Shown: positions 5,201 to 57,956 of the stretch, piece by piece | How the letters are laid out: every line of letters begins with the position of its first letter | Numbering within the stretch: the first letter of the stretch is position 1 | From: Eutreptiella sp. 'Long Island Sound 2002' | Lineage: Eukaryota; Euglenozoa; Euglenophyceae; Eutreptiales; Eutreptiaceae | NCBI GenBank assembly: GCA_964036045.1 | Contig: OZ038383.1 | Coordinates: forward strand, 62,315,725-62,379,724 | Direction of reading: 5' to 3' | Length of the DNA: 64,000 nt | Made by a program: the position numbers and the translations under genes | The notes under the pieces: model-generated | What the model was told of the DNA's origin: nothing | Seen by the model: the letters and a program-made list of their open reading frames with translations, nothing else | Databases searched by the model: none

Positions 5201-5880
5201 TGCAAGGGTTACATAGCATTTCGGCCCTCTTTTGGGCCCCTGAGAAGACAGGGGTGAGGTAGCCACTTCTGATTCTGTCGCCATGCTAGCGACCCTTGAC
5301 AATGTAGGGCTTACGTAGCATTTTCGCTCTCTTTCGGGCCCCCGAGAAAGCACGGGTGAGGTTGCCAATTCTCATGATGTGGTCTTTGTTGGGGACCCCC
5401 GAGAATGCACGGGTTACGTACCATTTCGCCCTCTTTTGCCCCCCCCCCCCCGGAAGGCAAGGGTGAGGTAGCCACTTTTTGTTTTTGCCCTTTGTTGGAG
5501 ACCGTTGAGAACGCACGGTTAGGTAGCATTTCCGCCCTCTTTTGGACCTCTGGGAAGGCAGAGATGAGGCAACCACCTCTGATTTTGTCCCCTTAGCTCC
5601 GGACCCCCAAGAGTGCAAGGCTTATGCAGCATTGTGGCCCTCTTTTGGGCCCCCAACGGGGCAAGGATAAGTTAGCCACTTCTCATTTTGTCTTCTCTGT
5701 TCGGGACGCCCGAGAGTGCAATGCTTATGTAGCATTTCGGCCCTCTTTTGACCTTCTGAGAAGGCAGGGGTGAGGTAGGCTTTTCTAATTTTGTCCCCTT
5801 TGTTGGCGTCCTTCGGGAATGCAGGCGTCATGTAGCATTTTCGCCCTCTTTTGGTCCCTTGAGAAGGCATAGGTGAGATG
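2240..5880. repeat. Tandem array of about 103-bp units, about 35 copies
   Basis: Successive copies of the landmark CCCTCTTTTGGGC start at 2521, 2624, 2727 and 2830, giving a period of 103-104 bp. The unit also contains GGCAGGGGTGAGGTAGCC, CTTCTGATTTTGTCCCC and GACCCCCGAGAATGCA. Copies are diverged with point changes and small indels. The many minus-strand open frames inside only reflect the repeated unit and are not genes. The core GGCAGGGGTGAGGTAGCC also occurs in the 84-bp arrays at 30.3 kb and, diverged, at 45.0 kb. Confidence 0.95.
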
Positions 5881-23412: not shown

Positions 23413-26400
23413 ATGCATGCCCATGGGGCAACCTCCCACACCGGCCCCGAATCCCACCCTGCACCAGAGCCAAAGCAAAGGTTGCACGACTTGATATTCC
23501 GGGCCCGAGGCCGTGCACATGATTTCGCACTGGAGATGAGCTATTTTCCATATCAGAATTCTGCCCGACATGTACTCCCGCTTCTCCCTCAGTGCACCGT
23601 TCACATTTTGCAGGAGCTCCATCCCCGTCTCCCACGGCATGCCTGTGCCATCAGGTGCTGGTGGCCACAACTCCCGCGCCCTGAAGCGGCCCCACCACCT
23701 CCCCTCCACCCAAGTCCCTCATGCCCCAATGCCCCCTCCTTTTGGACACCCCGCACACATGGCCCCCGCCCCTTTACTGGCCCCCCACGGATACGGTCCC
23801 CCAGGACATGGCTCGTCAGGATATGGGTCCCCAGGCTACGGGGTCCATGCATACAACCCCATGGGGGGCCACCCTGGCCCATTTTATGCCTTGGGCGCCA
23901 GGCCAAGGGCTGATGGGCAGGACGTCGTGTATGACAGCCACGCTGTGGGGGAGACGCTGGTGGATCTGGTGCCCTGTGAGAAGTGTGGTCGCACGTTTGC
24001 CCGGGACCGCATAGGGCGGCATCAGGAGGCATGTCAAGCCATGCGAAGGCGGAAGAAGTTTAATACCCGGAAGCAGCGCTTGGATGGTGACTCCTGCCCC
24101 CAGCGACGGGTTGTGGGACAAGGGATGTGCCAGAGTACATAGCAGGTGCCCTACAAATCCTAAAGATTTGCGATTTGCGTGTTGTTGTCCGCAAAAAAAA
24201 AATAAAACGCAAAAAATAAATTGATTTTCGGCGTCATGCCCTACGCAAAAATGGGTTCTGCAAAAAAAATTGCAAAAATAAAATACTTTTTGCCCCTGCC
24301 CCCTTTTTGCAGGACTGCCAGAATTTCCAAGAATGGCATTTCTCTTTCACAGCCATGTACAGTGCTGTGTTTTTTCTTGTTGTCTGATCCCGCAGAGTTT
24401 TCTGTGGCATTTTTTCAGCATTATTATTATTATTATTTCATTTATTATGTTTATTAATCTTATCACTATTATCGAGACGCACGGACAAGGCAGCATTTCA
24501 TGTACCATGGGCACTATTATGGACGAGTTTGGAACTGGTTTGTTGAAAAACTGGTAGACCTGAATCATGCTTGTTGGTGCTTATCTTGCAATCCCAGAGT
24601 CTTAGTGATCTACAGTTGTATGCCTGTCTAGGAATGGACTTGCAATCCCAGAGCCCAAGGTACGCACGGTCTCTTGCAGTAGCAACAAAATGAATCAACC
24701 CCAATCCCCAAAACGCAAAAAATGAATCAATTTTTGGCGTCATGCCCTACGGAAAAATGGGTTCCGCAAAAACAATTGCAAAAGTAAAATATTTCTCGCC
24801 CATTTTGGATGCTGTCGCCAAACTTTTGCTTACTATTAATTCAAAACACCCAACGCAAAAATTGGGATTCCGTGAATCTTTAGGATTTGTATGGTATGCG
24901 CGGGCGGGGGTAAATGTGAAGGTACAAAGGGGGCCTAACATGGACCCTCCCTCTGCGCTGAGTCGATCCTATGTGAGCACAACAACTCTGTGTGGTACAG
25001 TGGTTGTGGCAGATTTTTTGGGACCGCTGTTTCTGTGGTCCGAAATGGAATTCCACACCATTTTTCGTTGGTTTTGGTTGGAGAAGTGGGCTGTTTGATG
25101 GTTGCAAGCGTTGTGTGTGGGCATAGCAATATTCTGCTTGAGTTCCACTGCCTATCTTCCATATTTTGCTTTGTAGCTATGACTAGCATTGCTTACGGTG
25201 GCATGGTTGTCACCTTTCCGCGGTCCAATTGGCATCCTGCAGATTCTACTATTATTGGTCCCTCCATTTCGGGGGATCAAGACATTCATGTGAAGTACCT
25301 GCAGAATGGGAATGAGATAGAGCATGCTAAGAACACGAAGCTCAAATCCATTCCTCAGCCACTGCTCAAGGCCGCTTTAAACCCTCCCTCCAAGGAAACA
25401 GCCCCGGATTCAAATTAAGAGCAGTGAAAGCATGCTGCAAACACTCTGCAAAATCCCTTTGCCATGTGCTCGTGTGTACTGCCCTGTGTGCAAGGTTTGT
25501 GTCGGGTTCTGCCTCCACCATGTCACATTCTGCGTCAAGCTACGCTCAAGCACAGTGTTGCACGAGGACCCCACGGTACCGTTGTTTGGAACATGCCCTC
25601 TGAGTTCCCCGAGAACAAAGCACGGATCAATGCCTGTTTCTGCTTGCATTCACCTGTTTGACAATTAGCATTCCCTGTGTTTCCCCAGGCCTCAATGGTG
25701 AAGATTTCTTCGTGCCGAAGAGGGCCAAAAAAGTGTTCACCGCCAAAAGGCCGGAGTCCAAACCTGCATCCAACTGGAGGCAGGCGCATGAAGGTGCAGG
25801 ACCCCGCCCCAGTCTGCTCAAACCTTCTGGTCACTGAACCGTCGTGGATTCACATCCCACGGGCCTCCAAACTATCCATTTGATTCCAGTGCCGTCGGGT
25901 TGTGTTCCATTTGTGGTCAATGCGGCTTGAGTTGTGGCGATGTAGGGTGCCATGCATCGTTGGGCCTCCACTTCACCATTTTTTGCCGTGTTTTGTAGTG
26001 CCAGCGGAAACCCCGGCCCTTGCCCCTGGGAGGACAGAAGCGACAAGCGGGAGGGGGGCAGCTCGGGGTGAAGAAGAGGGGTATTGTCTGCAGCGATTCA
26101 AGACGGTTCGGCCCCATGTTTCTAAGCAATTCAAGTGCACTAAGCAGCCGAGAAGGCATGGGGGTCGAAGATCCCATGCCTGTATCGTGTGATACAAATG
26201 TCAGATGGAATTTCAGACAGATGGACGACGCAGTGGTGGTGGGCCTCCCAATGCTGGTGGACAGCGTGCGACTGCTGGTGTTCGGCAGTGATTGCCGCTG
26301 ATCTGCCACAGATGATGATCAGATCACAATAGCTGTCCAGTGGCGCAGCTTGCTGCGGGTTTTACTGGGCCTGCAGCTGCTGGCGTTGTGCACCTGTGAT

Positions 26401-29400
26401 GGGCTGGTCAGGATGAGAGGAAGGGCCAGGTGTCAACCCAGCACTTGGGAGCCCCCCCGGTACGTCAGCATGTGCGCACCCCTGAACGGGTATTGGTCAT
26501 GCTGACCTGTGATTGGGGGCTCAGGGGGTCATCTCAGGTTTCAAAACAAATGACGCTGAAAGGCTCAATCTATTCATCCGCATCACTCAGCCCCCTCCCC
26601 TTGTCAATGAAGCCCGAAGCCTAAGCCCCCATCCCCTAGAGGTTTTGATCCAGGCGAGCCCCCTAGCTGGGACGCAGACAGGCGCCAGACAGGCACTCAG
26701 ACAGACCTTCAGGAATGAACATAGACCTGCTTTTGATGGCACCACCAACCTGTGCGGGTCTCCCTCTATAGACCCCCCCCCCCCTCTTGTCAATGGTCCA
26801 TAGCGCTGCTCAGGCGCCTTCCTATGCCTTTCGGGGATGCGCTCACGGAGCTGGTGCGCATGGTAGAGCGCACTGGGATCTGGCCGCAGCACGTGGCGGA
26901 AGGCTTCACGTCATTGAAGGCTTCACGTCACTGGTGCCCAAAGGAGAAGGAGAAGGAGACCCCATGAAGTTAAGACCTCCGATAGTTTTATTGTAGATAT
27001 ATCACATTTGGGCGGGGGTAGGCATGGAAGACACACTGCAGTGGCATGAGCAGTGGGTGCATCTGGAAGCATATGGATTCCGCCCCCACAAGGGGGCCAT
27101 GGATGCCGCGACGGTGCTGACGTTGCTGGTGGAACTAGCGCAGGTGCTGAATGCCCCGCTGGTGGGCGCGGGAACGGACTACACCAAATACTTTGACTTA
27201 ATCCCCCAAGCCATCTCTATGGCCATGATGCACAAGGAGGTGCAAGGAATAGACGAAGGAGTGTTGTGGGCCTTCCGCGGAATGTACACCCAGCTGAAAC
27301 GAATTTTTAAGATCAAAGTATGTTTAGGAGCGTGGTGGGCAGCCACTGATGGAGTATTTCAACGGTGCCGGCTGAGCGTGATTATCATCAACGCCTTAAC
27401 CACCATGTGGAAGCGAATCGTCGACGATGTAAAGCAGTCGGTGACGGTCGTCACGATGGGGCTACCGCCCGCTCCAAAGAAGGAGGAGCTCCCCTCTTGC
27501 TATTGGTCCAGCTATGGGGTGGGTGTGTACCACATCCGGGTGTGGCGATGTGTGCAGCCCTACTGCTGCTATGAGCAGGGCTGGAGTGTAGATGGGGAAC
27601 ACAAACCCCCCACCAGATCCGGACCATGGAGGGGCCCCGCACCCGCACCGGAGGCCGGCAGGCGGCCAGATGGGTGAACCCACGCTAGCGGCAAAGGTGT
27701 GGGTGCGACTCGGGCTGCAAGAAATGCCCACCCCCGCAAGCACGGAGCGTTGTAGAGCATCAACAAGGGGTGTCCCCTCGCCGGGAGTGTAGTCCCTCCG
27801 CAGAGATGGTAATTTCCACACCTTGGGCTGCATCCTCGGTGATGTCCTCGTTCTCTGTGGCACTCGTTCCTTCCATTTTGCTTTTCTCATATCCCGCTCC
27901 AAACAAGTTTCGTGGGCATAGTGGTGAGACCGGTTCCTGGTTGAGTGTATCAGACTATGTGGATTATACCTACATGCTGACCCTCCACGTGCTCTTGTCT
28001 TCAGCCATGTTGGTCGCAACCAGCAAATGGTTGAAGCTCACGGGCTAGGAAGACAACGCAAAAAAGTCGCGAGCCTTCTTAGCGACCAGCTCAGCTCACA
28101 GGAAACCAAAGGCGTGGAGGCGACCCTGGACGGAGTACAGATGCCGGTCCATCAGCAAGTTCGACGGCTGAGGGTAGGAGTGCCGCGGACAGGGACCTGG
28201 CCATTGCTACAACACTGCACTACGAAGGGCAAGAAGGCAGTGAAGAAGACCCGCACTATACCCGGACGCCTTGACCGCAAGGCCACAGTAGCGGGAGTTA
28301 TGATTGTGGCGGTGGCATTGTTTTGAGGCGAGCTCGCGGACATCTCACAAAGAGACGCTAACAGCCTAGGAACGGCCATGATGAGAGAGATTTGGGGGCC
28401 CATCAGGGCCTTTAGAGCAAGAGAAGTGGTGTTTGCGCCGTTGCTGCCGAGGCAGCGGGTGGCCCCATCCATGGTGGTCCCGAACAGGAGGGTGTGTTGG
28501 CTGGCACAAGAGGGTGTGTTGGTTGGCACAGATTGCACACAGCCCGGGCACGGCACAGACGGTGGCACAGGGCATATGGGAATGTATTGAGTCGCCCAAG
28601 GCAACAAGCCCACTTGGGCGAGCGCTACTTGAATTCTGTAAGCTGTGTTAACGCTGCCTGCGGGGATGGTGGCAATGGGCCATGCCACGCACAGGGACGG
28701 CTGTTCACCTGGTACACGCCCCCAAGGAGCACGTGGAGCACCTCTTCAGAGAATCATTGAGGAGAGCTAGCTAACGGCGCTGGAAAAGCGGACACCACAC
28801 ATCCTTGGAGGAATGGGAGCGCGCCTGAACCGAAACCTGATGCCCGGCGAATTGGCCAGGTGCGCTACGCAGCTGCAAGTCGTTGATGAGGGGGGCCTTG
28901 GCGGGGCTCACCTGGACGGCCAACAGGGCGCACCGCAAGGGGCTCCGCCCAAACGACTACGGTTCCTACTGCACCAAAGGGGTCCAGGAGGACGAAGACT
29001 ACCTACTGTGGAGACCCCTTGTACCCCCCCCCCCCCCTGCAATCACGGTTTATGGGCTCTGAGATGTCCCTTCAGGAAAAGGGCCGAGAGGTCCGATTGG
29101 CGGTCACCCTCCTCGGGAAAGCGGCCGGATGGGGGTCCATTTTGCCAGTAGCCATCACCCCCCGGCACCGGGAGCTGGCACAGGGGTAGGAGTAAAGGGA
29201 CGACCCCTCTTCACCAGACCGACGGCGGTATGGCACCATCTACAGCAGCGACGCAAGTACATCTCAAATTGATGGACGCGCCAGCAACAAGCGAGGGTGG
29301 CGCGGCAGCAACAAAACGTGAGTCTAGCCCAGGGGGTGTCCACAGTGGTGCCTAGCGATAGCTCACGTCACGGAGAGAGAAGTCCAGGGAAGGGAGGAGC

Positions 29401-32400
29401 CAAGAAAGCAGCGAGGGCATATGCCAGCGATTTCTATGCAGGCCCCGTAATACCACAGGGGGCCCGCAGAGGCCCGCAATATCAAGTGGAGGAGCCGGAG
29501 CATGGCCCAGCGGACGCCACACCCTGTTCAGGGGCAGCACTGTTCACACCGCTGCAACGATGCACCAAGGCTAGGCGCCCGGATCCGCACCCCTAGCTGC
29601 AACGCCTGTGGATCTGCCCAACACACCAACACAAACAATGCGCCATCTGTGCAGCGGTGGGAAGAGGGCTGCGGCACTAGTGCGTCTGAGGACACATCGG
29701 GCACCCCCAGCCCGGCTATTGGGGCACCCGAGGGCCACACTCATGCACACGGCCGGGTCCTTTACACCAGGAGGAGGTGGGGGGGGCGGGCACCCCGGAG
29801 TTTAAACAGCGGCGAGCGGAGCAGCGGCTAGCGCCTAGGGGTGCACAGGAGTGGGTGCCGAAGAGGGGAATAGCACAGGCCCCCCCCCCCCCCCCCGGCC
29901 CCTCCAGGCAAACGGCCATGCCGACAAATTTAGGATGCGGCCCGCCACGGGCGCGCCGGTACCGAGGCTACATAACCGCCCAAACGAAACCCTTCTGACC
30001 CAAGCGAGGCCCCCAAATGCGAGCCCAACAGGCACGGAGCCGGGCCGACAAAGCTGTGTGTCAGCCTCCGCGTGATGGCGCCACAGGCAACAGCGGGGAG
30101 TCCGTGACCCATGCGGGTCTCCCTCTACAATATTGACACTCCCCTGTCCAGGGCTGTCCTTAAGGGACGAGATTTTTTTTTTGTTAAGGACAGCCCTTAA
30201 GGACAGCCCCTAGAGGCCTTTTTCCCCCGGCCGGACGCGGGCCATGTCTACCCCCCCCCCCCCCGCCCTCTTTTGGGCACCAGTTCTGATTTTGCCCCCC
30301 GCTCTGAAGCGGTGGGGCTCCCCATTCGGCAGGGGTGAGGTAGCCAATTTGCCCACTTGTGGGCCACTTCTGATTTTGCTCCCCGCTCTGAGGCGGTGGG
30401 ACTCCCCGATACGGCAGGGGTGAGGTAGCCAATTTGCCCACTTGTGGGCCACTTCTGATTTTGCCCCCCGCTCTGAGGCGGTGGTGCTCCCCGATACGGC
30501 AGGGGTGAGGTAGCCAATTTGCCCACTTGTGGGCCACTTCTGATTTTGCCCCCCGCTCTGAGGCGGTGGGACTCCCCGATACGGCAGGGGTGAGGTAGCC
30601 AATTTGCCCACTTGTGGGCCACTTCTGATTTTGCCCCCCGCTCTGCGGCGGTGGGGCTCCCCGATACGGCAGGGGTGAGGTAGCCAATTTGCCCACTTGT
30701 GGGCCACTTCTGATTTTGCCCCCCGCTCTGCAGCGGTGGGGCTCCCCGATACGGCAGGGGTGAGGTAGCCAGTTTGCCCACTTGTGGGCCACTTCTGATT
30801 TTGCCCCCCGCTCTGAGGCGGTGGGGATCCCCGATACGGCAGGGGTGAGGTAGCCATTTCGCCCACTTGTGGGCCACTTCTGATTTTGCCCCCCGCTCTG
30901 CAGCGGCGGGGCTCCCCGATACGGCAGGGGTGAGGTAGCCAATTTGCCCACTTGTGGGCCACTTCTGATTTTGCCCCCCCGCTCTGCAGCGGTGGGGATC
31001 CCCGATACGGCAGGGGTGAGGTAGCCAATTTGCCCACTTGTGGGCCACTTCTGCTTTTGCCCCCCGCTCTGAGGCGGTGGGGCTCCCCGATGCGGCAGGG
31101 GTGAGGTAGCCAATTTGCCCACTGCTGGGCCACTTCTGATTTTGCCCCACGCTCTGCAGCGGTGGGGATACCCGATACGGCAGGGGTGAGGTAGCCAATT
31201 TGCCCACTTGTGGGCCACTTCTGATTTTGCCCCCGCTCTGCAGCGGTGGGGCTCCCCGATACGGCACTTCTGATTTTGATTTCTGATTTTGCCTCCGGCT
31301 TTGTTGCGCGCCCGTGCATGCTTTTTTTTAGGTAACTGGTGGGGTGGCTCCCCACATGAAAATTGAAGCACCAAGTGGTGCCCAAACCCAAACCTGCGTG
31401 TGCCGAAACCTAAACCAAAATGAATGCACTCGCCGCAGAGCGATGGGAGTAGGCACCCAGGATAGCACTCGCCGCAGAGCGACGGGAGTAGGCACCATTT
31501 TTGGCATTTTTTCCCTGCGATCGCACGTGCTGTGTCTCTGTTCTAGTTGGACCCATGGCGCATTTTGGTGTACCTTGCGTAGTTTTTCTGCCTGACATGC
31601 ATGTGCTTATCGTCACCTACCACGCCCCCACGCCAGAGGCCGCCGATGCCGGACCCCTCTTGAGTGGTCGTGTCAGTCAAGTGTCCACGAGCTGGATATT
31701 GTGCTAGAGAATTTGCCTGCTGTTGTGGAACACTTGTCCGAGTACATTAGTCATGAGGCTGACCTGGGGCGGAGGGAGAAGGCCCAGGGCTTGTTCGATG
31801 CACTTTCGCACCCCCTCTTCAAGTTGACGGCAGCCTTTTTCTGCGATGTTTTTGCTGTGGTTTGTGCCACAAGCAAGAAAGTTCAAGCGACTAGGGGGGC
31901 ACGGGTCGCCGCCGTCCAGGGTTTGATGAACGTGATGTGCACACACCTGTTGCACACCATGCGTCATGTCATTCCAGGGGGGTGGGAGGAATCGTTGGGT
32001 GTTGACGTAGGGAGTAGCGTCATCAAGGGTAGCCGGATGAATGTTCTTCGCAGTTTGATTGAGGACCTACAGACAGGATTCAAGCGAGCTGAGTGGGATG
32101 GCAGTGCTAACCTGGAGGATTGGGTTGAGGCAAGCTCCTGTTCGTGTGAGAGAGTTTTTAGCTACGTGACGCCTACGGACTTTGGCCAAACCACGGAGCG
32201 CATGTGTGAGACGCTGTGGGTAAGGTGCAATGGGGAGGCACCAGAGGATTGGGGGCCCTTTGAGGTTCTTGAGGACCTTCGCAAGACCCCTTTCCGCCCG
32301 CGCAAACGGAAGCAAGGGCATGCGGTTGAGGTGGAAGATGTGGTTGGCTTGGGTTTGCGGCTTTCAAGGATTTGGCAGTTTCTTTGGAAGAGGATGGTGA

Positions 32401-44400: not shown

Positions 44401-45724
44401 GGCCCGTCACTGTTAGTCCAAAGGAAGTCATATGAGCCGCACCTAGGACCGCTGGGTGTTTTATGTTCTGCGAACGTGCAATAGCGTTCTTTTGCATGAC
44501 TTTCGGGCAGTTGATTGACTTCTAGGGCTGGAGTAGTGGTAGGGGGGTACAAAGTTGGTGGTGAAGTACTATTAGCTTCAGTGAGCAGGGCCTCCACGAC
44601 AGTGGCACAAGGTTGCATTTCTTTTGCGGGAGACTTTGTTGTTCTAACCACGATTTTTTAGCGGCCATGCAACGGATGGACCCTATGTCCTGTCTTGGAG
44701 ATGAAACGGGGTTCAAGTGGGAGCCGGGACCCGACCCTCAAGGGGGGCGAGGGACCCCCCCCCCCCTCTACAGACCCCAAAATTGTCGTAAGGAACAATG
44801 TGCTTTGTCAACGCCGGCTGTGCCGGAGATTTTATTTTAGGCATACGGCAGGGGAAAATTTTTTGTTCGACCCTATGTGTCTGTACTCAAAATACTCAGA
44901 ATTTCGTGGAGAATTCCAAAATTTCCGAAAACCACAAAAAAGGATTTTGACCCTGACCCAGCCTCCGGGTCGGACCTTGGCTCATGGGAGCCCGTTTGAG
45001 CGTTAGCCAGGGCGGTCGTTGTCAAAGCGTTGAGGACCCCCAAGGCGGCAGGGGTTATGTAGCCACCTTGCCCACTTGTGGGCCACCTGTGATTCTGCCT
45101 TCCGCTCTGAAGCGGTGGGCCCCCAGGTGGCAGGGGTTATGTAGCCACCTTGCCCACTTATGGGCCACTTTTGATTCTGCCCCCGCTCTAAAGTGGTGGG
45201 GACCCCCTAGGCGGCAGGGGTTATGTAGCCACCTTGCCCACTTGTGGGCCACCTTTGATTTTGTCCCCCCGCTCTAAAGTAGTGGGGATCCGCCAGGCGG
45301 CAAGGGTTATGTAGCACCACCTTGCCCACGTGTGGGCCACTTTTGATTCTGCACGCCGCTTTGAAGCGGTGGGGACCCCCTAGGCGGCAAGGGTTATGTA
45401 GCCACCACCGGCCCTGCCCACTGTTCTCCCTGCTCTTCTCTCTGGGCCAAACCAGGGTAGTAGTAGTAGTGGCGGTAGCAGTAGCAGCAATTCCCCACCA
45501 ATGCCTCCTCGAGTAGGAGTGCATCCACCAGCACTAGTGCCCCGTCAGGCACTAGTGACTATGTGCCATCGGAATCCATGTCTGATGGGCCGGCAGCCTA
45601 CCGGGTCACAAGATTGCAACCAGCCCTGCCAAAGCAGCGTGCTCGCCCGAAGAGTACCGGCAAGAGGGCACGCGACGAGTGGGAGGATGATTCCGCTGTT
45701 TGAGGCCCCTCCCCTTCCTTCGCT

Positions 45725-45765
<41 letters not shown>

Positions 45766-48700: not shown

Positions 48701-51700
48701 TGAGCCACTGGCTCAGCCCCCCCGCCGCCGGCGTCGCCACCACCACCTTCGCCTCCTCCTTCTCCTTCACGATCTCCTCCTCCATCTCCTCCGCCTCCGC
48801 GTCCAACTCCACCACCTCGTCCACCTCCTCCTCCTTCATCCTCGCCACCACCGCCGCCAACTCCCTCTCGCTCCGCCGCACCGCGCGATCGAACCCCTCG
48901 ATCGCCTGCTCCTTCTCCGCCACCTTCGCCTTCGCCTTGCGGAGGTTGGCCTCCGCCATGCGGATCCTATCCGCATCCCCCCCCTCCCGGAGGCTGGCCA
49001 ATTTGGTCTCCCATTGGGAGACTATGGTCTCAGCCCTTCCCTTGGCCGCCTTGGAGGCTGTGAGGGAAGCCGAGAGCCCTTTGAGCTCCCCCCCGCGCCT
49101 CCTCCACCTCCGGGTCCTCCGCGGGGACCGCTGCCGCCGACTTCCTGGCGACCAACGGGGGAGGGGGTGGCGATGGTGGATGTGGGGCTTGGGGTTGGGG
49201 TTGGGGCTTGGCCTTGGGCTTGGCGAGGGGGGGTGCCTTGCCCTTCGGGGCCTGCTCGGCCTTTGGCTCCGCCTCCTCGGCCGGAGCCTGCCGTGCCTGC
49301 CTCTGCGCCTCCAGGATCTGCGCAATCAGCGCCTGGGTCGCCGCATTCTGTAGCAGACACAGGAGCGTTCTAGCGGCGTTCTAGGCAACTGTTCTATCGG
49401 CGTTCTAGCGACAGTCTAGCGGCTGATCGTGCTGCCTAGATCAAGACTAGAACGACTCCCTAGATCACCACCAGAACGCACAGCAAGACATATACCTGCT
49501 TCAGCAGCTCGTCCATCAACTCTTGCGATGCCATCTTGCGAAATAGTCTGGTTCAGGGAAGCCTGCATGTGGCCCTAGCCCCTCCTTATCTCCATGGCAT
49601 CCCTGCCCGAGCATGGCACTTGCGACCGCGGCCCCCCATGCACAACCCATAACACGTCAAAGTATGCAAACAACCATGTCATGCACTGTGCTTGCACATT
49701 GGCCTCCTTGTGGATTGCCGACCACTGACGACGCGACACCTCGTCCACCCCCTCCACCCGACAGCCCCCCCCCCCCCCTCCCGGTTGCTGTGCCCGTTGT
49801 GACCATGTTTCAGAAAGCGGTTGATGCTTTCCGAAATGTCACCCCAGAAGATAGCCAGGCCAAATGGCTTAATGTTCTGCAACATGGTATCTACATCATG
49901 CTCAAGGCTTAATAGATACCATGATGTTGTTCCGACAGTACAGTGGCGCCGGAAATCGCGGGCCACGGCAGCACAATTCAATGGGTTAGGGCCCTGATAT
50001 GTACAATAGAGGGCCTGCAGCAGGTCCCACATGTTCGCGATGGCCTTGTACTTGGCCGTGCTTGGCCTAATGCCGAGGCACTTAGCAATATCCGGCCATG
50101 CGTCAAAAAAATTGGCCGTCTCTTCCCCGTCCGGGGAAGCTGACCCATAAACGCTCCAACCTACACGCCTCTCCGTCAGGAGAACTTGCAGGTCTTGACG
50201 GAGCGCAGGGGTGACCGACCTAGCCTCCCGGTCGACAAACTCCCCCAACAAGCGGCCCATGGCCATTGTCAAGTGCAAAATGCACAAGACGACCGAGGCA
50301 CATGGCAATTTCAAAATGCGCTGCGTACTGCAGCCGGCGGCTTGCAAGGAAGGCGTCCCAAGGAGGAAGGCCGTGTAGTTGGCCTCATCACCCTCCGCGG
50401 TCCGCGGGATAGCACTACCCTCCCAAGTCTTCGTTTGGGCATTCCATATCCCCTCATTGAACATGGAGCCCACTTGGGGGCATGTGGACACCCCGATCAC
50501 CCTTCACGTCCACGGTTGATCCCCCCCGAGGATCACCTTTGCCTCCTCCTTGGAGGCCCCCCATTGGACCAGCCCCGTGTCGATGATATCTTGAATCACC
50601 TAAACACGAGACATGGGGGGTTGTTAATTTCGTTCTAGTCTAGTCCAGTCTAGCGTCTAGCGAGCGCTGTTTGAGGCCGACTACATCAAAACTAGACCGA
50701 GCGAAAGGCACTAGGTGAGAGGAGTACCTCCCAATTGCTCTTCCACAACGTGCCAAGGGTGTCCATGGCCTTGTCATCGCAATTGGCCATGCTCAACACC
50801 CAAAGGCCCGCCGGGGAGCGGGCCAAGCGGTCGAAGTTGGCCAAGGAGATGGTGAGTTGGGTCCAATTGCCCCCGGCCACGGGGTAGGCATCTCCCCGGA
50901 CGATGAACGTCAACGGGAAGGTGCGGTTGATTGACCGCACCAAGCCCGGCCGGGAGAGGATATATGTGACCCATGAGGCGAAGGGCCATGAGATCTCGGT
51001 GGCCTTGGGCAACACCGTGGCAACGGGGTCATCCAATTGCACCGGGGCGACCAACTCCTTCCAACGGGCTTGGAAAGCCCGCTCGTTACAAATTGGACGG
51101 GAGTAGGGGCCACTAGGGACGGTGCGGTGATACTCCAACTTACGGAGCGTGTAGAGCTCCGAGAGGGTCCTCCACGAGGACTTGGGGGCCCTCATGTTGA
51201 GCACTAGTTCACACATGGCGTTGGGGGGGAGTAGGGAGGCGGCGTATGCCTCAACGGCGGCCTTGCATGCCTCACCCGTGGTATGGGTAGAAGTGGCGGA
51301 GTTCACATATTGGACGGCGTTGTTGAATTGCCGCCGTGCTAGGGGGCATGATAGCGCCCACGTGGCCAAGTAATGGCCCACCCGCTCATCCTTGAGGTTA
51401 GATGCCCCACTCAAATCCCGTAGTGCCTTAGACAAGAGGGAAGTATCCTTCCCGGTTGAGGAGGGAGCAAGGGGGGAAGTGGCGGGGCGTTTCATTGCAA
51501 AGAAATGTGCAATATCTAAGCGGGAAAGAAGGAACCATGGAACGATGCACTACGGACAATAGCAAGCATGCACGGCGCAACAATGAAGAAATTGGCACAT
51601 CTTGGTAGACATTATATCGTTCTAGTATTGATCTAATCTAGGCTAGAACATCTAGGCTAGAGTGTTCTAGGCTAGAACGAGATTGGGTCTTCTAGCGTGT

Positions 51701-54700
51701 ACCAAGGGTAGAGGTGCACACCCTCACCAAGGAGCTTGGGCCGGTGGCGGGGGATGCGCAACGGCTCATTGCCTTGCCAAAAGCTCGCATCAAATGGCTA
51801 ACGGGAAAATTTTTTTTGCACTCGCGGAATGCATTTTTTGAGATCCCCCCCTCACAAAAGGTGTACCAGAGAGGTTGTACTATGTATGAGCATTGTGTCC
51901 GTCATAGTAGGGCTACCGTGGTCCCTATGTTGAGTACTTTAGTGCCCTTGTTGGGGATGTGGAGGTGGCGCAAGTTTTTGAAAGCTGCACGTGCACATTC
52001 GAGGTAGGATGTTTTGTCGTTTGGCGCATAATGCTTTCCCTTGAGGATAAAGCTTACCTAGTCCATGTTTGGTGCTACTCGGTGTCGCAAGTATCGTTCC
52101 ACCGCAATGGGTTATTGTTCGCCTGAGGGCTGCCCTGAGGATGGCTTTTATAACATGTAGTTGGAAAATGACACTGGATATCCTTTCCCTGCCTAAATGG
52201 GGGGGAGGGCATAGGCTTTCAATGCCCGATGTGTATTTGTCTTTTGCTCATGCTTCGTCGTTTTGGTGGTAATCCGCTTCAGCTTAACATAATGGATGGC
52301 GTTGGGTGCTGTGGGCAGCATGTCTCGTGACGGCTATGTCGTAGCTCAATAAGCCGTGGTCTAGCTTGTGGCTTGCGTGATTTACTATTGTTGCTGCCCT
52401 TGCGTGGAACCGTCTAAGTTTCGCTGTGAACAACCAGACACTGCCATGCTGCTATTTCTTTCTGCGCTCGTGCTTATGTATTGCGATCTACTTGACATGG
52501 ACGCATGCTCCGTCAAGATACAAGATAGCGATTTGGGCCCAAAAAACTTAGTAGTGCCCACTGGCACAAGCTCTCTAAGGTTCTATGGCACCCGGTGAGG
52601 GCTTGGGAGGGTGATCGCCGTGTAGAAGGGTTTTGTGGGGCCCAGGCTGTGGTGAGGCCTTGCGTTGTTCACCCCCCTCACATTCTGTAGCATGTGAACC
52701 ATCAAGAGGCAGCTATGTGGAGGGTGTATCACCGCTTTTGCCCCCCCCCCCCCCCCCCCCCGCAAAATTTGGACTTTGTACATATTGGCTTGCGGAAAAC
52801 CTCTTGGTGGCATAGCGCCTGCACGACATTTTTCTTGCATTCCATTGCAGTGTTCTTTTGATGGCGCCCGGGGGGACGTCAATCATAGGCTCAAAGTCTA
52901 TAGTTTGTTAGCTATTCTCACATGTATCTTGCAATGTACTTCCCCCCCTCTGCATACTGCCCTGGGGCGTGCGCCTTTAGACAGCTGTGTACTAACTACC
53001 TGCTTCTTTCACTAACGACGGCGCCGGGCATCCTTGTTCAGAGGGTTGCTAGCGTACTACGGTGTACCAGTGCACGGTAATTGTTTAGTTTAGAGCAGCT
53101 TGTTCAGTCATATTCTTTGGGTCAATTGCACTTGCAAGTAGCAAAGTGGCTAGAAATGCCACATCTGTCACTTTGCATGATGCAGTGCACGTCTTTTTTG
53201 AGGGCATTCAAGGCTCGGTGTTGGATGGCAACATCCATGTTCTCTCTGGCTCTGACATGTGAGTTCAAAAGTGCCCGCTGGATGTGGTGGTTTTGGTCCC
53301 GGACCTATATCTGTCCTGCCAACTTGCACGGGATAAGGTTGGCCACAAGCGGGCTCGCACAAAGGCTGACCATCTCCACGGGAGGCTGACGGCGTGCGCA
53401 TTCCATAATTGTTCAGCAACTCTCACGTAGTTGAAGCACCGGGGTGTCATTTTACTGGTATGGTGTATGGTTTGGTCCCCTGGACCTACGGTACATCTCC
53501 TCCTCATTGCCCGAGAAGGCATAGAGCAAGAAGAGGGCAGTGTTGATGGCATGCATTGAGGCACTTTGCGTGCTGCCATCGTCGTTGGTGATTCGTGTGG
53601 TCGTGGGCAGTCAGTCCGCACACTCATTACCTAGAACACCGATATGGCTGTATGCATGCCGCAAAAGGGTCTAGGCTGTGTTGTTGTGAAGCACTTGTCG
53701 CAACGCCTCCCACAAGTCCGCATTTGCCACCACTCGCCTTTGCAAGTCACAACGCTACATATACCTTGTCACACCGTCATATCTTGCACGCTGGTCTCAC
53801 CCATAGCACCTGCAGTCTTTGAGGGAAGTTCAGGAGCGTCATGGCCTGCCGCGGCTGTGCTTAGCAGCCTCATGATTGCAGCCCACTTGATTTTGTCACC
53901 TTGTAGTGGGAAGATTTGTAAACAAAGATACCGTGGAAACGCCGCAACTAACAAACCACGTTAGATCAAGAGAGAGAGGCTAGTGGTAATCAGAAAGCAT
54001 AGGAGGAAGAGGGGACATGAGCAAGCTTTCATGATACCCCCTGCTGGCCCAGCGGGCCGCCATCCAACCAACCATCAAAAGCAAAGTGAAAACACGGAGG
54101 AGATCCACTGGGGCTCCAATCAGCACGAGTCCGGTCGCTGTGACCGCAGTTTTCTTCAAAGCACCTCTGTGGGCTACCACGCCAGCCCCCCCCCCCCCCC
54201 CCCCGCCCCCCAGCCTGACCAAGGATGTGTGGGGATGGGCTATGGGGAGCGGTAGGGCACATGTGCATGCAATGTGTGTGTTGTTGCACCGAGGCAGGGT
54301 TCTAGGGCAGGAGCTGTGGTTGTTTAGCGGCGTATATCCGAATGCGCCAGGGCGGCCTACTGCAGGGCCTGATCTTTGAACTGATGGTTCGCAGCAATGG
54401 TAGTTGGTAATGGTAATGGTAATGGTAGTTGAACTCACAGTTGGAACGTGACTGGAATCGATACCCTGGCACACGCATGCAACGTTGCAAAGACGGTGCA
54501 AGGCTGGCAAGATGCGGGCAAAGCAAGAAGCAAAATTTCTCAAAAGTACTCGACGTCTGCAAGACACAACAGTAAGCACAGCCCAGTCAGTTCCATGGAG
54601 CAAATGTCCGTAGATCACTGCCCAAGCCCCACCTGCCAATTAGTTCTATCCTCGCGTCATTTTCCCAAATGACCCCCCCCCCCCCCCCGCCCCCCATTTG

Positions 54701-57700
54701 CTGGACAGGGGGGGGGGGTTTCGTTTTGTTTGTCGGTAATCCCGAGGTTCATTGGAGGTCGGTCATCCCCTTGTAATGGCATTGACACCGCTCCGAGGCC
54801 TCCATCCAACACACCGGGATCCCAGTGTCGCCCTCAGTGTCCTTCTGTGCGCCTTGTCCCCTCATAACCACCGCTGGCCCACTCCGTGTGTCCAGAGTTC
54901 CAGCAAATCGTGCGGTACGCCCGGAAAACCGCTGCACAGAGTGCCCCAGCACAGGCCCGAGGGAGAGGGCAGGCCCCATGGGCCAGCAAGTCTGCGACCA
55001 GAGGCGGTGGCCCAAAGGGCGGCCGTAACGGTGGGTCGCTGCCTGCGTTGCCGCCCCTGCCGCCGTCCTCCAACCCTCACTACGTGCAGTGCCCGCACTG
55101 TACCCGTAAGTTTGCCCCAGATGTGGCGGGGCGGCACATACCGAAGTGCAAGACCACTCTGAACCGGCCCAAGGCCCCACCCGGTGCCGCGAGAGATGCC
55201 GCAGGGCCAATGGGTATGTGTGTGCGCGCGCAATGAATCTCCTTGTTTTTTTACCTCCACGGGAATCTGTGATACCCTAAGAGCGGTTGGCAGTTGGCGG
55301 TTGGAGGTCAACTCTGCAGTGTCAGGGTGCACAGCTCCTGTCAGTGCTGTTATTCCATACGTCACATGTGACTGGCTGCATCCTCGTCCATCGTCCATAG
55401 CCCATTTGCAGTGCACTCATGTTCCACATCAGACCTCCACGTCCGCCTCGACAGCCTGTGCCCCATGACCTAGACCCCATACCCCTATATTCCTGAAACA
55501 TGCATCGGCGCCTACATACCGTAAGCAGCAGACTCTCCATGGATCCCAGGCCTGGTACTCATATCTTCTCTGATCATCGCAACGTGCACGCTTCTCTCAT
55601 GCAGGTGCAAGTGGGAGTGGGAGCAGGGGCGCACACTCAGCTCCCTCTGCGACACGACCATCCTTGCCGAAACCTGCTGTTGGAGTCCGATTGGAGCCCC
55701 TGCGACGCGGCAATTCTGCCAGTGCAAGACCTAGGCGGTGAGAGCCCACAGCCCTCGGAGCCCCAACAGGGGCCAGTTAACCCCCACCCCCCCTTTCAAC
55801 AAGCACACACACGCAGAGACAGAAAGGGGGGGAGAGAGATCGGTCAATGCCGTCTCTTTTCAGTCCATTTTCCAGAGAAGATATTCTGAATGTAATTTAG
55901 ATTTCCAAGGCTTCGTTTAGATACTTCTTCGACCACACTATGCAGGCCTTTGTATTCGCGGGCAGAGTGCTGATGTCACAGAGTTACACAATTGCAGTGC
56001 ATGCCGCACCCGGATGTGTTGTCACAACGCGCAATAGTGTGAAGCTGACACAGCAGAAGGTGTGAATAAATTTTTTGTTGTTTTTGATCATATTGAAAAT
56101 CATCACGTTTTCTCATTGTCCGTTTCTGAGGCAGTTTTGTAGGGTCCAGGCCTCCTCTGCACCCTGTGCCGAGCTGATGCTGGCTACTGCAAGTACTCCC
56201 ATTCACATTCACTCGTTTTCATGCTGCTTGGTGATTGATCTGCCAGCCATTGGATGAAGACTCGTGTGGAAATCGGCGCACAAGGCCCTGTAAATTTGTT
56301 TTACAGTTGTTATCAGTGATTTCATTGAAATTTTGTGCGCAACCGTACACTCGAATTTCCTTCACAACGACCGGCTGGCCTGTTGGTTTGTTGCTACGCC
56401 GTTCTCCGGCACTTGTGCAGGGCCGTACGTTTGGCATAGACCCGCCCTCCGCCCTCTTATGACCCAATATTTTCCAGGTTACCCACGGCTGCTCATGGGA
56501 ATGATTAGTGTGGGGCCTCGTGTGGGCGGCCGTGAGGTCCTTCTTGGAATCAAACCTCCCCTGTGTGTCCTGTATCAGCCGCACCCGCCCACAACTTTCA
56601 AGTTGAAACAGAGCAAGCGCCAAAGGGTCAGAGCCGCAGTGGAAGCGGCTTGCGGTTTGGCCCTGTCCATGTCACCAATGACATTAATCCCACCCTACCC
56701 GATGACCTTTAACCCTTTCCTCATTGAGCCCTGACCTGCCAGTTGCTACCCTATTTGTTCCTACGGTGTGTGCATACGTAAACCCAATGTGTCAATATTG
56801 TAGCTGGTAAGGGAATGTCCCCGGTCCCACTCAAGATTTGGTTCATGCTGAGCATCATCCTGTTTACCCAGAGAAAAGGTTTCCTCTGGGAGTTTTCGAG
56901 AGGAATTGCTTGAAAGACAAAAACGACACTTGTTATCACCTTGTACCTCCAGAACCTGTGCTGGTCGTGGGTGTAAAACCACCCCCAACTCCCTTTTTCC
57001 TTTTTGGCCATTTTTGACCCCCGGTGTGGTTTCGTCCCCCCATTTGGTCATTGGGGGGGGAGGGTATCACCCCTTTGTGGTGATTTTATACCCCGTTTTT
57101 GGTGATTTTATCCGTTAACCTAGAACCACAGTACCGGAAGACAAGCTGCCTTAGGTCTATATGTTGTGCTGTAAGGAGAACACCCTTGGGGATGGGGGCG
57201 GGTGCTTGCCCCATTTCCATTTCGGGTATGGAGGTAGGAGAGGTGATGCAGGGTCAGGGAACGACATATGGTTTTACACTCAGTGTTTTGCTTCACATTG
57301 CTCTTTGCATATGTGTTATAGGATGTCTGACCTGGCTGGGGACAATTGTACAAGTGGGGTCTAAGATGGGACTTGAGATGGGACATGGTTTGGGTTTGCC
57401 ATTCATCTAGTTTGACATGCATTGCTTTTGTGGCAGCATTGCTCAGACTGCTTTTGTTTGTTGTGTTATGTCATTTGTTGCTTTGGTGGCATAAAACCAC
57501 CCCGGGGTGGTATTATCACCCCGAAGGTGGTGGTTTTAAGAAGGGGGGTGGTTTTATTCCCCAAAAGGGGTGGTTGTACCCCCCCCCCCCCCTCAAAGGG
57601 GTGGTTTTGTCCCCCTTAAAAGTGGGCATGAAACCACCTGGGGTGGTTTTAAGGGTGGTTTTATCCCCCATTTGGGGGTGGTTGTATGCCCGGGACCAGA

Positions 57701-57956
57701 ACCTGTACAGACCATACCCTAACTAAACACACCCATGCTCTTTCTGCAAAGCACTGCCATCAGCCCCTTGAGCGCAGTGGCTGCCGAACCTTGCAACACA
57801 ACCCTGCCACGTGAAGCAGGCCCCATATTGCCAAACCCTCCTACCACCAACCTACAACCCCATCCTAAATGCCATGACTGCAGGTCTTCGCCGCTACCCA
57901 TGCCACCTTCAAACCCAAGGTCTCATCAGCACAACAACAACAAGAATCGAGGCTAG
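23413..57956 (+). CDS. ZC2HC1-type double C2HC zinc-finger protein with a 29-kb intron
   Basis: Six exons: 23,413-23,480; 23,614-24,086; 25,689-25,793; 54,896-55,213; 55,605-55,737; 57,884-57,956. All introns are GT-AG and phases match throughout (2,1,1,1,2), giving 390 codons including the TAG stop. The N-terminus (residues 1-140) is Pro/Gly/Tyr-rich and disordered. Zinc finger 1 is C144-x2-C147-x11-H159-x3-C163 followed by RKKFNTRKQR. A linker carries SNWRQAHEEF (208-217). Zinc finger 2 is C281-x2-C284-x11-H296-x3-C300. The tail is Ser/Pro/Arg-rich. Both finger spacings and the NWR..HEEF linker match animal ZC2HC1 proteins, whose molecular role is poorly defined. Exons 1-5 are well supported. 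The last exon is less certain: an acceptor at 58,344 has the same phase, and one at 56,477 could join exon 4. Confidence 0.8.
24087..25688 (+). other. Intron 2 of the ZC2HC1-like gene
   Basis: A 1602-bp GT-AG intron. It holds a pair of diverged direct repeats (24,200-24,305 and 24,715-24,806), each with GGCGTCATGCCCTACG, AAAAATGGGTT and GCAAAA-rich DNA, and a TTA trinucleotide stretch near 24,420. An open frame at 24,990-25,418 has protein-like composition in its last 80 residues but no recognisable domain and no clear exon phase. Confidence 0.65.
25900..26790. other. Intronic stretch before the LINE relic, no gene seen
   Basis: Short frames on both strands and no recognised domain. A 12-base C run lies at 26,773-26,784. 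A CTTGTCAATG-type motif occurs at about 26,600 and 26,787 and in variant form at 33,115, where it also precedes LINE sequence. Confidence 0.4.
26800..29900 (+). pseudogene. LINE ORF2 relic (RT, post-RT, zinc knuckle), copy 1 of a second family
   Basis: The plus strand reads through several frames. A pre-RT segment (26,800-27,020) has PKGEGEGDP and KLRPP. The RT core (27,024-27,480) has YGFRPHKGAMDAA, TDYTKYFD as motif A, and RLSVIIIN in place of the usual QGCPLS. The catalytic box is at about 27,950 as YVDYTYML, with Tyr where the second catalytic Asp should be. A post-RT region (28,030-28,770) and a C-terminal region with the knuckle CNACGSAQHTNTN (about 29,600) follow. It is inactive: the active site is changed and there are many frameshifts. 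It is homologous to 32,950-33,770 and 36,925-38,035. The style resembles LINEs common in algae and dinoflagellates. Confidence 0.8.
30145..30212 (-). repeat. Retroelement 3' tail-like hairpin
   Basis: GGGCTGTCCTTAA (30,151-30,163) is inverted as TTAAGGACAGCCC, present twice at 30,184-30,210, around a T10 run. Read on the minus strand this is GGGCTGTCCTTAAC followed by poly-A. The same motif with a longer A-rich tract occurs at 33,074-33,110. This looks like the polyadenylated 3' end of a short retroelement. Confidence 0.5.
30262..31280. repeat. Tandem array of 84-bp units, about 12 copies
   Basis: The unit contains GCTCTGAGGCGGTGGGG, CTCCCCGATACGGCAGG, GGTGAGGTAGCCAATTTGCC and CACTTGTGGGCCACTTCTGA; copies start at 30,301, 30,385 and so on. 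Identity is high, so it is younger than the 103-bp array. It shares GGCAGGGGTGAGGTAGCC and CTTCTGATTTTG with that array. Because 84 is divisible by three, three minus-strand frames stay open for 340-396 codons; I do not call them genes. Confidence 0.95.
31640..32806 (+). pseudogene. hAT/ZNF862-like fragment with C-terminal SAP domain
   Basis: The frame from about 31,640 to 32,370 has VLENLPAVVEHLSEY, then a helical segment with LSHPLFKLTAAFFCDVF and SKKVQ. This is the layout of the RNase-H-like tail of hAT-derived transposases such as ZNF862. The +2 frame (32,330-32,803) continues with an acidic stretch (EGEDEDSEDED) and ends in a SAP-like helix-turn-helix (EWTKVEFKAICRKHGLS, then GKGELMERVRVHFQRLY, last 40 residues), a DNA-binding motif. 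The frame changes near 32,330-32,370, by a one-base shift or a small intron. No catalytic triad is visible. The SAP call is firmer than the hAT call. Confidence 0.45.
32950..33770 (+). pseudogene. LINE ORF2 post-RT fragment, copy 2 of the second family
   Basis: Plus strand. 33,120-33,437 reads IPGGLDHKATVAAVM, ELADIAQR and RVAPSMIVPYKR, closely matching 28,255-28,505 (IPGRLDRKATVAGVM, ELADISQR, RVAPSMVVPNRR). 33,620-33,766 reads AHLFRESIRE and matches 28,730-28,770. Only the region after the RT is present. The left edge has the motif GTTAAGGACAGCCCTGCCCC next to a T-rich tract (33,078-33,100). Stops interrupt it; it is a truncated dead copy. Confidence 0.75.
34035..35924 (+). pseudogene. DDE transposase-like gene, copy 1
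   Basis: Exon 1 is 34,035-34,780, a GT-AG intron lies at 34,781-34,930 (150 bp), and exon 2 is 34,931-35,924. It is homologous to the gene at 51,495-49,575 with the intron at the same place. Conserved blocks: PLTFIV-GDAYP-AGG (about 34,595), LVIGGDQP (about 35,000), CILH--MA-GRL (35,250) and ESLNAILK (35,705). The spaced Asp, Asp and Glu in GDAYP, GGDQP and ES-N fit a DDE catalytic triad, which is my inference. Frames shift near 34,510 (after a C5 run), near 35,580, and by -1 at a 19-base G run (35,756-35,774). Inactive unless the breaks are sequencing errors. Confidence 0.6.
35992..36890 (+). pseudogene. Accessory coiled-coil-type gene of DNA transposon copy 1
   Basis: A start ATG at 35,992 (MQKMLSDMLAANN) would be spliced from a donor near 36,040 to CTCTACAG at 36,253, leading to a Pro-rich then Lys/Glu-rich segment (KKEKKEKKKKKREK). 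This mirrors the first exons of the gene at 49,534 (MASQELMDELLKQ, intron, Ala/Pro/Lys-rich). 17-base G and 13-base C runs (36,478-36,494; 36,588-36,600) obscure the frame further on. Role unknown; its constant position next to the transposase suggests an accessory transposition function. Confidence 0.4.
36925..38035 (+). pseudogene. LINE ORF2 C-terminal fragment, copy 3 of the second family
   Basis: Plus strand in several frames. 36,925-37,030 reads LPALNLLFYPRAIRFQ. 37,260-37,360 reads VSFRELALDFESHAGRALPP. 37,440-37,548 matches 29,385-29,490 (GGAKRSTGAYGMEFCPGPVLPQ against GGAKKAARAYASDFYAGPVIPQ). The zinc knuckle CRSCGYAIHTNTC at about 37,640 is C-x2-C-x4-H-x3-C. A Pro-rich stretch and an end at about 38,028 follow. 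This is the best-preserved 3' part of this LINE family here, but no single frame covers it. Confidence 0.7.
38056..38571 (+). other. Unidentified 171-codon open frame
   Basis: The frame has mixed composition and ends with a basic, aromatic stretch (KKCTFLPRGLPEVAIPQKWG). An overlapping frame (38,091-38,498) is equally long. No domain recognised. It may be the end of the preceding LINE unit or random. Confidence 0.2.
38600..41390. other. Intronic stretch without a supported gene
   Basis: The longest frame is plus 39,836-40,684 (282 codons), Pro/Cys-rich, with no domain and with competing minus frames. A 10-base C run lies at 40,027-40,036 and a 12-base run at 41,249-41,260. No repeat array or RNA gene seen. 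Confidence 0.35.
41400..43070 (-). pseudogene. Degenerate unidentified coding region
   Basis: Minus strand, protein-like pieces in several frames. 43,073-42,855 reads LLRYYPPAWWQRLG. 42,868-42,677 reads TARILLGIAPRRAVTESIH. A tandemly doubled segment at 42,600-41,881 has KSYSPICTLACSNGKTFACQ followed by HGALSLHQEHTRA. 41,742-41,401 also has mixed composition. This looks like one decayed gene with an internal 360-bp duplication. I do not recognise the family. Confidence 0.3.
41881..42600. repeat. Tandem duplication of about 360 bp
   Basis: 41,881-42,240 and 42,241-42,600 are near-identical direct copies. Each contains GGGGCGTACCCCAGCCATCC, GGTCGGTCGACGGCAATTGG, TAGATAGGCCTCGTTGCAGG and GGGCTCCATGGGAAGCATTG. 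Differences are scattered point changes and small indels. Confidence 0.9.
43040..43450. repeat. Three copies of a GGCTCTG hairpin motif
   Basis: Short palindromes GGGCTCTGCAGCGCCC (43,052), GGGGCTCTGTAGAGCC (43,120) and GGGCTCTGCGGAGCCC (43,428) share a GGCTCTG stem with varying loop bases. Surrounding DNA is AT-rich with no gene seen. Function unknown. Confidence 0.5.
43718..44227 (-). other. Cys/His-rich ORF, unidentified
   Basis: The first 60 residues (44,227-44,040) are basic and rich in Cys and His: RSRKRRR, NAHGRCYGKPAHCCYGHKC and VACCSCG, a possible zinc-binding segment. The rest looks noncoding and includes a 15-base G run (43,972-43,986, as C on this strand). Could be the tail exon of a transposon gene; not assignable. 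Confidence 0.25.
44700..45030. other. Dispersed repeat related to 1190-1265
   Basis: 44,878-44,950 (TGTCTGTACTCAAAATACTC, then GAATTTCGTGGAGAATTCC) parallels 1196-1250. A 12-base C run is at 44,755-44,766. GCGTTAGCC at 45,000 also recalls the repeat at 1023. No gene seen. Confidence 0.4.
45040..45410. repeat. Tandem array of 82-87-bp units, 5 copies
   Basis: Copies of the landmark GGCAGGGGTTATGTAGCC (or GGCAAGGG variant) start at 45,047, 45,129, 45,213, 45,299 and 45,386. Units also hold CCTTGCCCACTTGTGGGCCA and CGCTCTAAAGTGGTGGGG. It is clearly related to the 84-bp array at 30.3 kb but changed to GGGTTATGTAGCC where that array has GGGTGAGGTAGCC. Confidence 0.9.
45724..45764. repeat. (CT)n(AT)n microsatellite
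   Basis: A run of about twelve CT dinucleotides followed directly by about seven AT dinucleotides. No gene around it is supported; the plus frame 45,501-45,848 runs through it but has no recognised domain. Confidence 0.85.
46626..49534 (-). CDS. Transposon accessory protein: Pro/Lys-rich, coiled coil, several exons
   Basis: Start ATG at 49,534. Exon 1 (49,534-49,496) encodes MASQELMDELLKQ; intron 49,348-49,495 (148 bp). Exon 2 begins NAATQALIAQILEAQRQ, continues Pro/Lys-rich, then has a strong heptad-type coiled coil (about 49,080-48,770, with an acidic run EELD/EAEEMEEE) and ends at a GTGAGT donor near 48,433. A short intron with a 19-base C run leads to MFELAQTNNF (48,360). The intron at 47,842-47,996 (155 bp) separates ALDRQG from VQTCGADPRG. 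The C-terminal part (47,841-46,626) has YAHVPGVGDTRYVPWAEGG, a KKGKKGKKRKR basic patch and Asp/Gly repeats. A further intron near 47,684-47,380 is likely. Frame changes coincide with G runs. Function unknown. Confidence 0.5.
49575..51495 (-). CDS. DDE transposase-like protein
   Basis: Exon 1 is 51,495-50,728, intron 50,600-50,727 (GTACTC donor, GTTTAG acceptor, 128 bp), exon 2 50,599-49,575. Homologous over its length to the gene at 34,035-35,924. Conserved landmarks: FPLTFIVRGDAYPVAGG, VILGGDQP, CILHLTMAMGRL, ASPDGEE, SLEHDVD, and ESINRFLKHGHNGHSNR near the end. By position, D of GDAYP, D of GGDQP and E of ES-N are candidate catalytic residues (inference). A TGA interrupts exon 2 where copy 1 has TGG (Trp), just after GGDQPWT. 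A -1 shift at a 14-base run (49,765-49,778) is needed to reach the conserved C-terminus. Probably recently inactivated. Confidence 0.6.
51709..53640 (+). pseudogene. Decayed LINE post-RT fragment and unclassified flank
   Basis: At 52,110-52,272 the plus strand reads FITCSWKMTLDILSLPKWGGG, then MPDVYLSFAHAS. This is the pattern seen after the RT in LINE ORF2 (a Trp-rich strand, LP--GG, then Y--A) and also at 20,300-20,400. Downstream frames are short. A 21-base C run, the longest in the window, is at 52,741-52,761. The remainder to 53,640 shows no gene I can support. Confidence 0.4.
53980..54639 (-). other. Unidentified open frame with a hydrophobic C-terminal segment
   Basis: Minus-strand frame of 219 codons. 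The last 60 residues (GLVLIGAPVDLLRVFTLLLM) could form a membrane helix. The middle is interrupted by a 19-base homopolymer (54,186-54,204) and by TTACCA simple repeats (54,395-54,430). No homology recognised; possibly random. Confidence 0.2.
57040..57700. repeat. Degenerate GGGGTGGTTTTATCCCC repeats
   Basis: Within intron 5 of the zinc-finger gene the motif GGTGGTTTT followed by a short C run recurs about ten times, often next to its complement (AAACCACC) so that small hairpins such as CCCCAAAAGGGG form. A 14-base C run lies at 57,579-57,592. No coding region seen. Confidence 0.6.

Follow-up and report, generated by a model that had tools for sequence, protein, structure and literature searches.

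Does one gene really continue across 29 kb of repeats, and is an intron of that size exceptional in the genome that carries it? The question arises from a zinc-finger gene annotated in a stretch of 64,000 nt (C6:62315725-62379724, hereafter the window) of an assembly of 2,280,300,865 bases (2.28 Gb) in 2,205 contigs. The window is free of any N, and neither Rfam, at gathering scores, nor ARAGORN, for tRNAs, finds anything in it. Its features are compiled in Table 1. The sequence argues that it very probably holds one ZC2HC1-family gene with a 29.1-kb GT-AG intron, grown by transposon insertion in a large, euglenid-like nuclear genome.

Gene model and protein family

Rebuilding the gene from the DNA reproduces the six exons proposed in the initial annotation, with their coordinates, phases and GT-AG borders. 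The five introns measure 133, 1602, 29102, 391 and 2146 bp, and the exons sum to 390 codons, stop counted. This sum and the matching phases had been offered as support for the model. The arithmetic is correct, but its diagnostic value is low, many other choices of exons 1 and 6 fitting equally, and the sum is no evidence because the exons had been picked to fit.

The core of the model holds: exons 2-5 constitute a gene for a ZC2HC1-type protein. Pfam finds two PF13913 C2HC stretches in the protein (62.7 bits versus a cut-off of 27). Both fingers, read off the translation, have the annotated spacing C-x2-C-x11-H-x3-C, and the expected W..H..F linker lies between them, with W210 and F217 invariant in the 10 sequences of alignment A1. 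Two PF13913 fingers around an NWR..HEEF-type linker are also the arrangement of the ZC2HC1 family (animal ZC2HC1A/C; kinetoplastid C2HC-finger/double zinc ribbon), from which the present protein differs by a proline-rich N-terminal part that has no evident similarity in A1. The nearest relative is P0014, a transcript-derived EukProt sequence (GGOE01020174, which we take to be from Euglena longa), with 54% identity over 92% of residues 135-332. Among the best 8,000 candidates of a database search, ZC2HC1-type relatives occur in rotifer, insects, fish and birds, and an alignment query adds trypanosomes and euglenozoan transcripts (again among the best 8,000 candidates).

Work on human cells and C. 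elegans links animal ZC2HC1A to cilia. Its ciliary localisation was validated in CilioGenics, its depletion leads to fewer ciliated RPE1 cells, and the C. elegans counterpart is expressed in ciliated neurons, cilium length being normal in the mutant (PMC11317154). By analogy, the protein of the window may act at the flagellum.

The two terminal exons did not survive scrutiny. Exon 1 could be any of 48 phase-compatible ATG..GT segments in the 1.5 kb upstream, and 99 of the 176 AGs within 3 kb past exon 5 yield a tail equal to or longer than that of exon 6; exons 1 and 6 as proposed are therefore unsupported. Read through unspliced, exon 5 runs into its own TGA, ending GVRLEPLRRGNSASARPRR-stop near P0014's own end. 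The preferred model thus comprises exons 2-5, with the stop at 55,741. In a euglenid the 5' end may be a spliced-leader acceptor, and the first real exon could begin at such a trans-splice acceptor, e.g. at 23613/23614. Degenerate GGTGGTTTTATCCCC-like repeats are visible by eye at 57000-57700, inside the proposed intron 5.

Table 1. Features of the gene and of its third intron (window coordinates)
Feature	Position	Strand	Remarks
Proposed exon 1	23413..23480	+	GT-AG and phase fit; weak, without clear counterpart in P0014
Exon 2, coding for the proline-rich N-terminus and for zinc finger 1 (CEKCGRTFARDRIGRHQEAC)	23614..24086	+	PF13913; tblastn with P0014, E 4.9e-15
Exon 3, linker, ends SNWRQAHE/	25689..25793	+	P0014 residues 111-148, E 0.17 alone, abuts finger-1 match; alignment A1
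Intron 3 (GT-AG, 29,102 bp), with many dispersed repeats	25794..54895	+	
Old dispersed-repeat stretch, reverse-transcriptase-like motifs GFRPHKG and DYTKYFD (by eye)	26800..28750	+	Ends are those of the query, not element borders
85-bp satellite array, 11.6 copies	30280..31266	+	Same family in other loci, C8 paralog intron included
Middle-age dispersed-repeat stretch, transposase-like ORF 34931-35848 (likeness by eye)	34800..36400	+	Ends are those of the query
361-bp unit duplicated in tandem	41880..42603	+	Repeat D5
82-bp satellite array, kin to the 85-bp array	45024..45406	+	
Young element between 54-nt terminal inverted repeats (TIRs) with 89% complementarity; two ORFs (274 and 285 aa)	46303..51710	-	TIR pair I1, ends read directly
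Exon 4, starts /EFQQIVRYARK.., linker plus zinc finger 2 (CPHCTRKFAPDVAGRHIPKC)	54896..55213	+	Highest of 1,610 acceptors at the junction; P0014 match by tblastn, E 8.6e-18; PF13913
Exon 5, to its own TGA (55739-55741)	55605..55741	+	GVRLxPL common to P0014; initially annotated as 55605-55737
Proposed exon 6	57884..57956	+	Unsupported

The join of exons 3 and 4

The claim on which the long intron depends, that exons 3 and 4 are joined over 29,102 bp through a split codon restoring HEEF, was reproduced: the join 25,793 to 54,896 gives HEEF in frame, and the intron splits the codon of the second E. Two scans of alternative acceptors single out the same site. Donor 25793 was joined to 2,197 downstream AGs up to 63,600 and the products, with a read-ahead of 320 nt, were scored against P0014. 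Acceptor 54896 scores 292, other AGs within exon 4 score 255-258 (113 in one case), and outside exon 4 no AG exceeds 73. With a read-ahead of 240 nt (2,221 AGs), four AGs within exon 4 outrank 54896, because the short read-ahead truncates the finger. The second scan compared the first 11 residues after the junction with four relatives and two paralogs of the same genome. Of 1,610 acceptors that leave 11 or more codons open (mean score -10.7, sd 5.75), 54896 scores 30.7 and the runner-up 16.3.

The alignment with P0014 continues across the exon 3/4 join (STWRQAHKEF versus SNWRQAHEEF) and likewise across the exon 4/5 join, at the common GVRLxPL. Exon 3 by itself is weakly similar (tblastn E 0.17), which counts against the join; it is nevertheless supported, because the tblastn intervals on P0014 abut, with residues 68-111 matched by exon 2 and 111-148 by exon 3, followed by exon 4, whose finger covers 216-258. 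Over 43 residues, the peptide of exon 4 shares 79% identity with P0014. Collectively, this is strong evidence, at the level of sequence, that exon 4 continues exon 3.

The introns have GT-AG ends, like the conventional introns of E. gracilis. Four of the five acceptor tracts (exon 6's included) contain more C than T, which would fit the C-rich tract described for E. gracilis (PMC11170887). Over the 20 nt that precede the AG, the raw, uncontrolled C:T counts are 9:5 for exon 4 and 6:7, 8:7, 8:6 and 6:5 for exons 2, 3, 5 and the proposed exon 6. Separate transcription of the two halves and their joining by trans-splicing, with no 29-kb precursor, is highly improbable, given that both halves follow one another in the right order on the same strand of one N-free stretch and that cis-splicing over long introns requires no new mechanism. 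Spliced-leader trans-splicing, moreover, adds a leader to an mRNA and is not known to join two coding halves. In favour of trans-splicing, acceptor 54896 has no feature telling cis from trans, and the machinery is present in relatives, spliced-leader trans-splicing in E. gracilis being estimated at >70% by full-length RNA-seq (PMC10679874). It would take a bolder conjecture to regard exons 1-3 and exons 4-5 as two transcription units joined in trans, the 'intron' being intergenic DNA open to transposons. Its milder version assumes a heavy tail of introns up to 50 kb or more, missed by draft-genome surveys and needing special handling, e.g. recursive splicing. We give this conjecture, in either form, very little credence. 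Instead, we infer from the sequence that the 29.1-kb intron is spliced in cis.

Paralogs and integrity of the locus

PF13913 has at least 32 matches in the genome (best 150 of 382 candidates), two of them the window's own. Of the 30 outside the window, 28 were inspected in their loci, two on C11 being left out. Apart from the window's own, no near-identical second copy exists among these inspected loci. The initial annotation had named separate complete paralogs, each explaining one half of the gene, as a finding that would undo the model; the finger exons at the 28 inspected matches provide none.

These observations bear on whether exons 3 and 4 come from different places and were misjoined via repeats during assembly. 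The repeats of the intron do have many near-identical copies, where misjoins occur, and other inspected scaffold stretches contain 200-N gaps. The window, on the contrary, is without N, and a database ORF identical to its positions 23759-24139 (part of exon 2 and bases beyond) sits on a contig of 2,073,724 bases, which covers the exon 2 side. Each half meets its partner here in phase, and the 28 inspected outside matches include no near-identical finger exon. Such an assembly artefact is therefore very unlikely.

Five paralogous loci could be viewed across the linker by its W..H..F motif (L009, L013, L015, L023 and L027). Unlike the window gene, whose linker carries an intron, none of them has the codon split in the linker, an observation that counts against the model. 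A further locus, L018, matches both fingers without the linker motif and was left out of this count. In the L023 paralog (C23) a finger exon is apparently duplicated locally, ~0.5 kb apart. A long interval nevertheless recurs in the family: in a paralog on C8 (L009-L010, L029-L031), finger 1 is split from linker and finger 2 by a 31,735-bp GT-AG interval (C8:64683709-64715443, including one 200-N gap), and the join is in frame and colinear with P0010.

The unsplit HEEF codon of the five paralogous loci, together with an identity of just 54% to the closest relative, P0014, would suit a decaying or dead gene whose intron outgrew splicing and whose protein is made as fragments only. Decay, on the other hand, is hard to reconcile with exons 2-5 being open and preserving the linker as well as both fingers, or with the similarity of the exon 4 peptide to P0014 given above; in addition, a presumably important Cpn60 gene of the same genome bears longer gaps. 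That the gene is dead or dying seems extremely doubtful.

Composition of the intron

The intron was annotated as holding LINEs, DNA transposons and satellites in both orientations. Dispersed elements, satellites and the two orientations are all present; the label 'LINE' goes back to motifs read by eye, to which Pfam gave no match. The genome-wide search for copies covered three intron stretches (26800-28750, 34800-36400 and 49680-51560) and considered the closest copies only, so that all copy counts are lower bounds. Three degrees of divergence emerge. The oldest stretch, 26800-28750, is found in at least 39 other places (best 40 of 222 candidates), with identities of 71-80% over the first half of the stretch and 65-71% over the second. 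Its reverse-transcriptase motifs were seen by eye, Pfam and PDB sequence scans being without match. Within it, ~148 bp (27794-27941) are inverted relative to the rest of the element, an internal inversion recognized by comparison with five other genomic copies. The stretch 34800-36400 recurs in at least 39 further main matches that are 84-92% identical (best 40 of 1,231 candidates). The youngest, 49680-51560, the one part of the 46303-51710 element that was searched, has at least 39 other copies at 94-96% identity (best 40 of 1,231 candidates). At both outer ends of this element stands TA, which represents either a target duplication or arm sequence. The ORFs 34931-35848 (+) and 49682-50503 (-) share 34% protein identity over 166 residues, and related elements thus lie in the intron in both orientations.

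The intron contains or overlaps 227 stop-to-stop stretches that reach 70 aa or more; 12 of them were scanned with Pfam (two also versus PDB sequences), and none exceeded the cut-off; the sole hint among them was SPRY at E 0.18 (33915-34565). The 85-bp and 82-bp satellites belong to one family, which makes up ~7.2 kb (23%) of the C8 paralog intron and 10,165 of the 283,619 bases in a survey whose sampling was biased. The 85-bp family's profile also matches part of a long array of a 103-bp satellite (2257-5877) upstream of the gene.

Intron length in the genome and in Euglena gracilis

How unusual are 29 kb? A survey of single introns between profile-adjacent exons of conserved genes on large scaffolds gave 52 introns (26 from chaperonin, 24 from kinesin and two from PRP8 genes), with a median of 969 bp and a mean of 1,534 bp. 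Four exceed 5 kb, two of these exceed 10 kb (10,141 and 11,164 bp), and none is longer than 29,102 bp, which counts against the model. For PF00118, 79 matches were used (87 of 88 candidates scored), giving 37 single introns, 11 of which were dropped as lying on small contigs, possibly of other organisms. For kinesin, 62 of 146 matches (best 122 of 649 candidates) were used, a by-eye pick of large-scaffold entries with a same-strand neighbour. The survey omits gaps <20 bp or >300 kb and lists apart those with unmatched profile residues; the ZC2HC1 paralogs are outside the 52. Because both profile-adjacent exons are needed, long introns whose partner exon goes undetected are missed.

Longer intervals do occur in the same genome. 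In a Cpn60 gene, plastid-type by eye (C3:48718753-48889464; L033-L036), the four detected exons extend over 171 kb. Two exons that are 36 profile residues apart are separated by 101,967 bp, an assembly distance that may include gaps, and a second interval measures 56,744 bp over 194 profile residues. If one exon is missing in the 101,967-bp interval, one intron there is at least ~51 kb long. The intron of the window had been called far longer than is usual in microbial algae. It does lie far above the ~1-kb median, but the 31.7-kb interval of the C8 paralog and the 102 kb of the Cpn60 gene deprive it of singularity, and 'microbial alga' is a poor yardstick because the genome has 2.28 Gb. The 29-kb intron belongs to the upper tail and is not alone there; it is long, yet ordinary in kind.

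The genome is probably that of a euglenid other than E. gracilis or E. longa. P0053 (a GGOE accession, which we take to be from E. longa) and P0054 ('EG_transcript', which we take to be from E. gracilis) share 80% identity over 760 residues. To either of them, the C9 locus of the genome studied here is 60-72% identical in colinear segments of at least 120 residues in L002 and L014 and 48% identical over ~190 residues in L015, with short stretches (26-27 residues) of up to 85%.

Compared with published E. gracilis introns, the difference is large: 29,102 bp stand against a mean of 512.5 bp and a maximum of 8,197 bp for the 11,527 GT-AG introns reported from an incomplete draft genome (PMC11170887). 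An older draft study reported 271 introns averaging 1,027 bp, some of them very large (PMC6366073). The chromosome-level assembly of E. gracilis comprises 2.37 Gb with 58.84% repeats, and the word 'intron' is absent from the main text of that paper (PMC11252322). Our literature search on giant introns with transposable elements in an alga found no report.

Probable growth of the intron and what it suggests

How such an intron is handled, and how it arose, can be proposed from the arrangement of the locus. The gene would be transcribed across at least 32 kb, and the ordinary spliceosome would excise a single 29.1-kb GT-AG intron splitting the codon of the second E of HEEF. The intron was probably once shorter: a smaller ancestral intron may have expanded via repeated insertions of mobile elements of different ages and via satellite arrays, and the three divergence layers are consistent with such stepwise growth. 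Long introns inflated by transposons are a known class in large plant and animal genomes. The intron of the window resembles that class in that dispersed repeats of varied age and satellites make up much of its length; it differs in that its host is a protist, and nothing else is known to set it apart.

The finding suggests that introns in a euglenid-like genome can exceed the 8.2-kb maximum published for E. gracilis, a value from a draft genome, several times over, and that the published range of euglenid intron lengths is cut short. With its three repeat layers of differing divergence, the intron provides an example of intron growth. The window gene, the C8 paralog and the Cpn60 gene would each be broken up by a gene finder that sets an upper limit on intron length.
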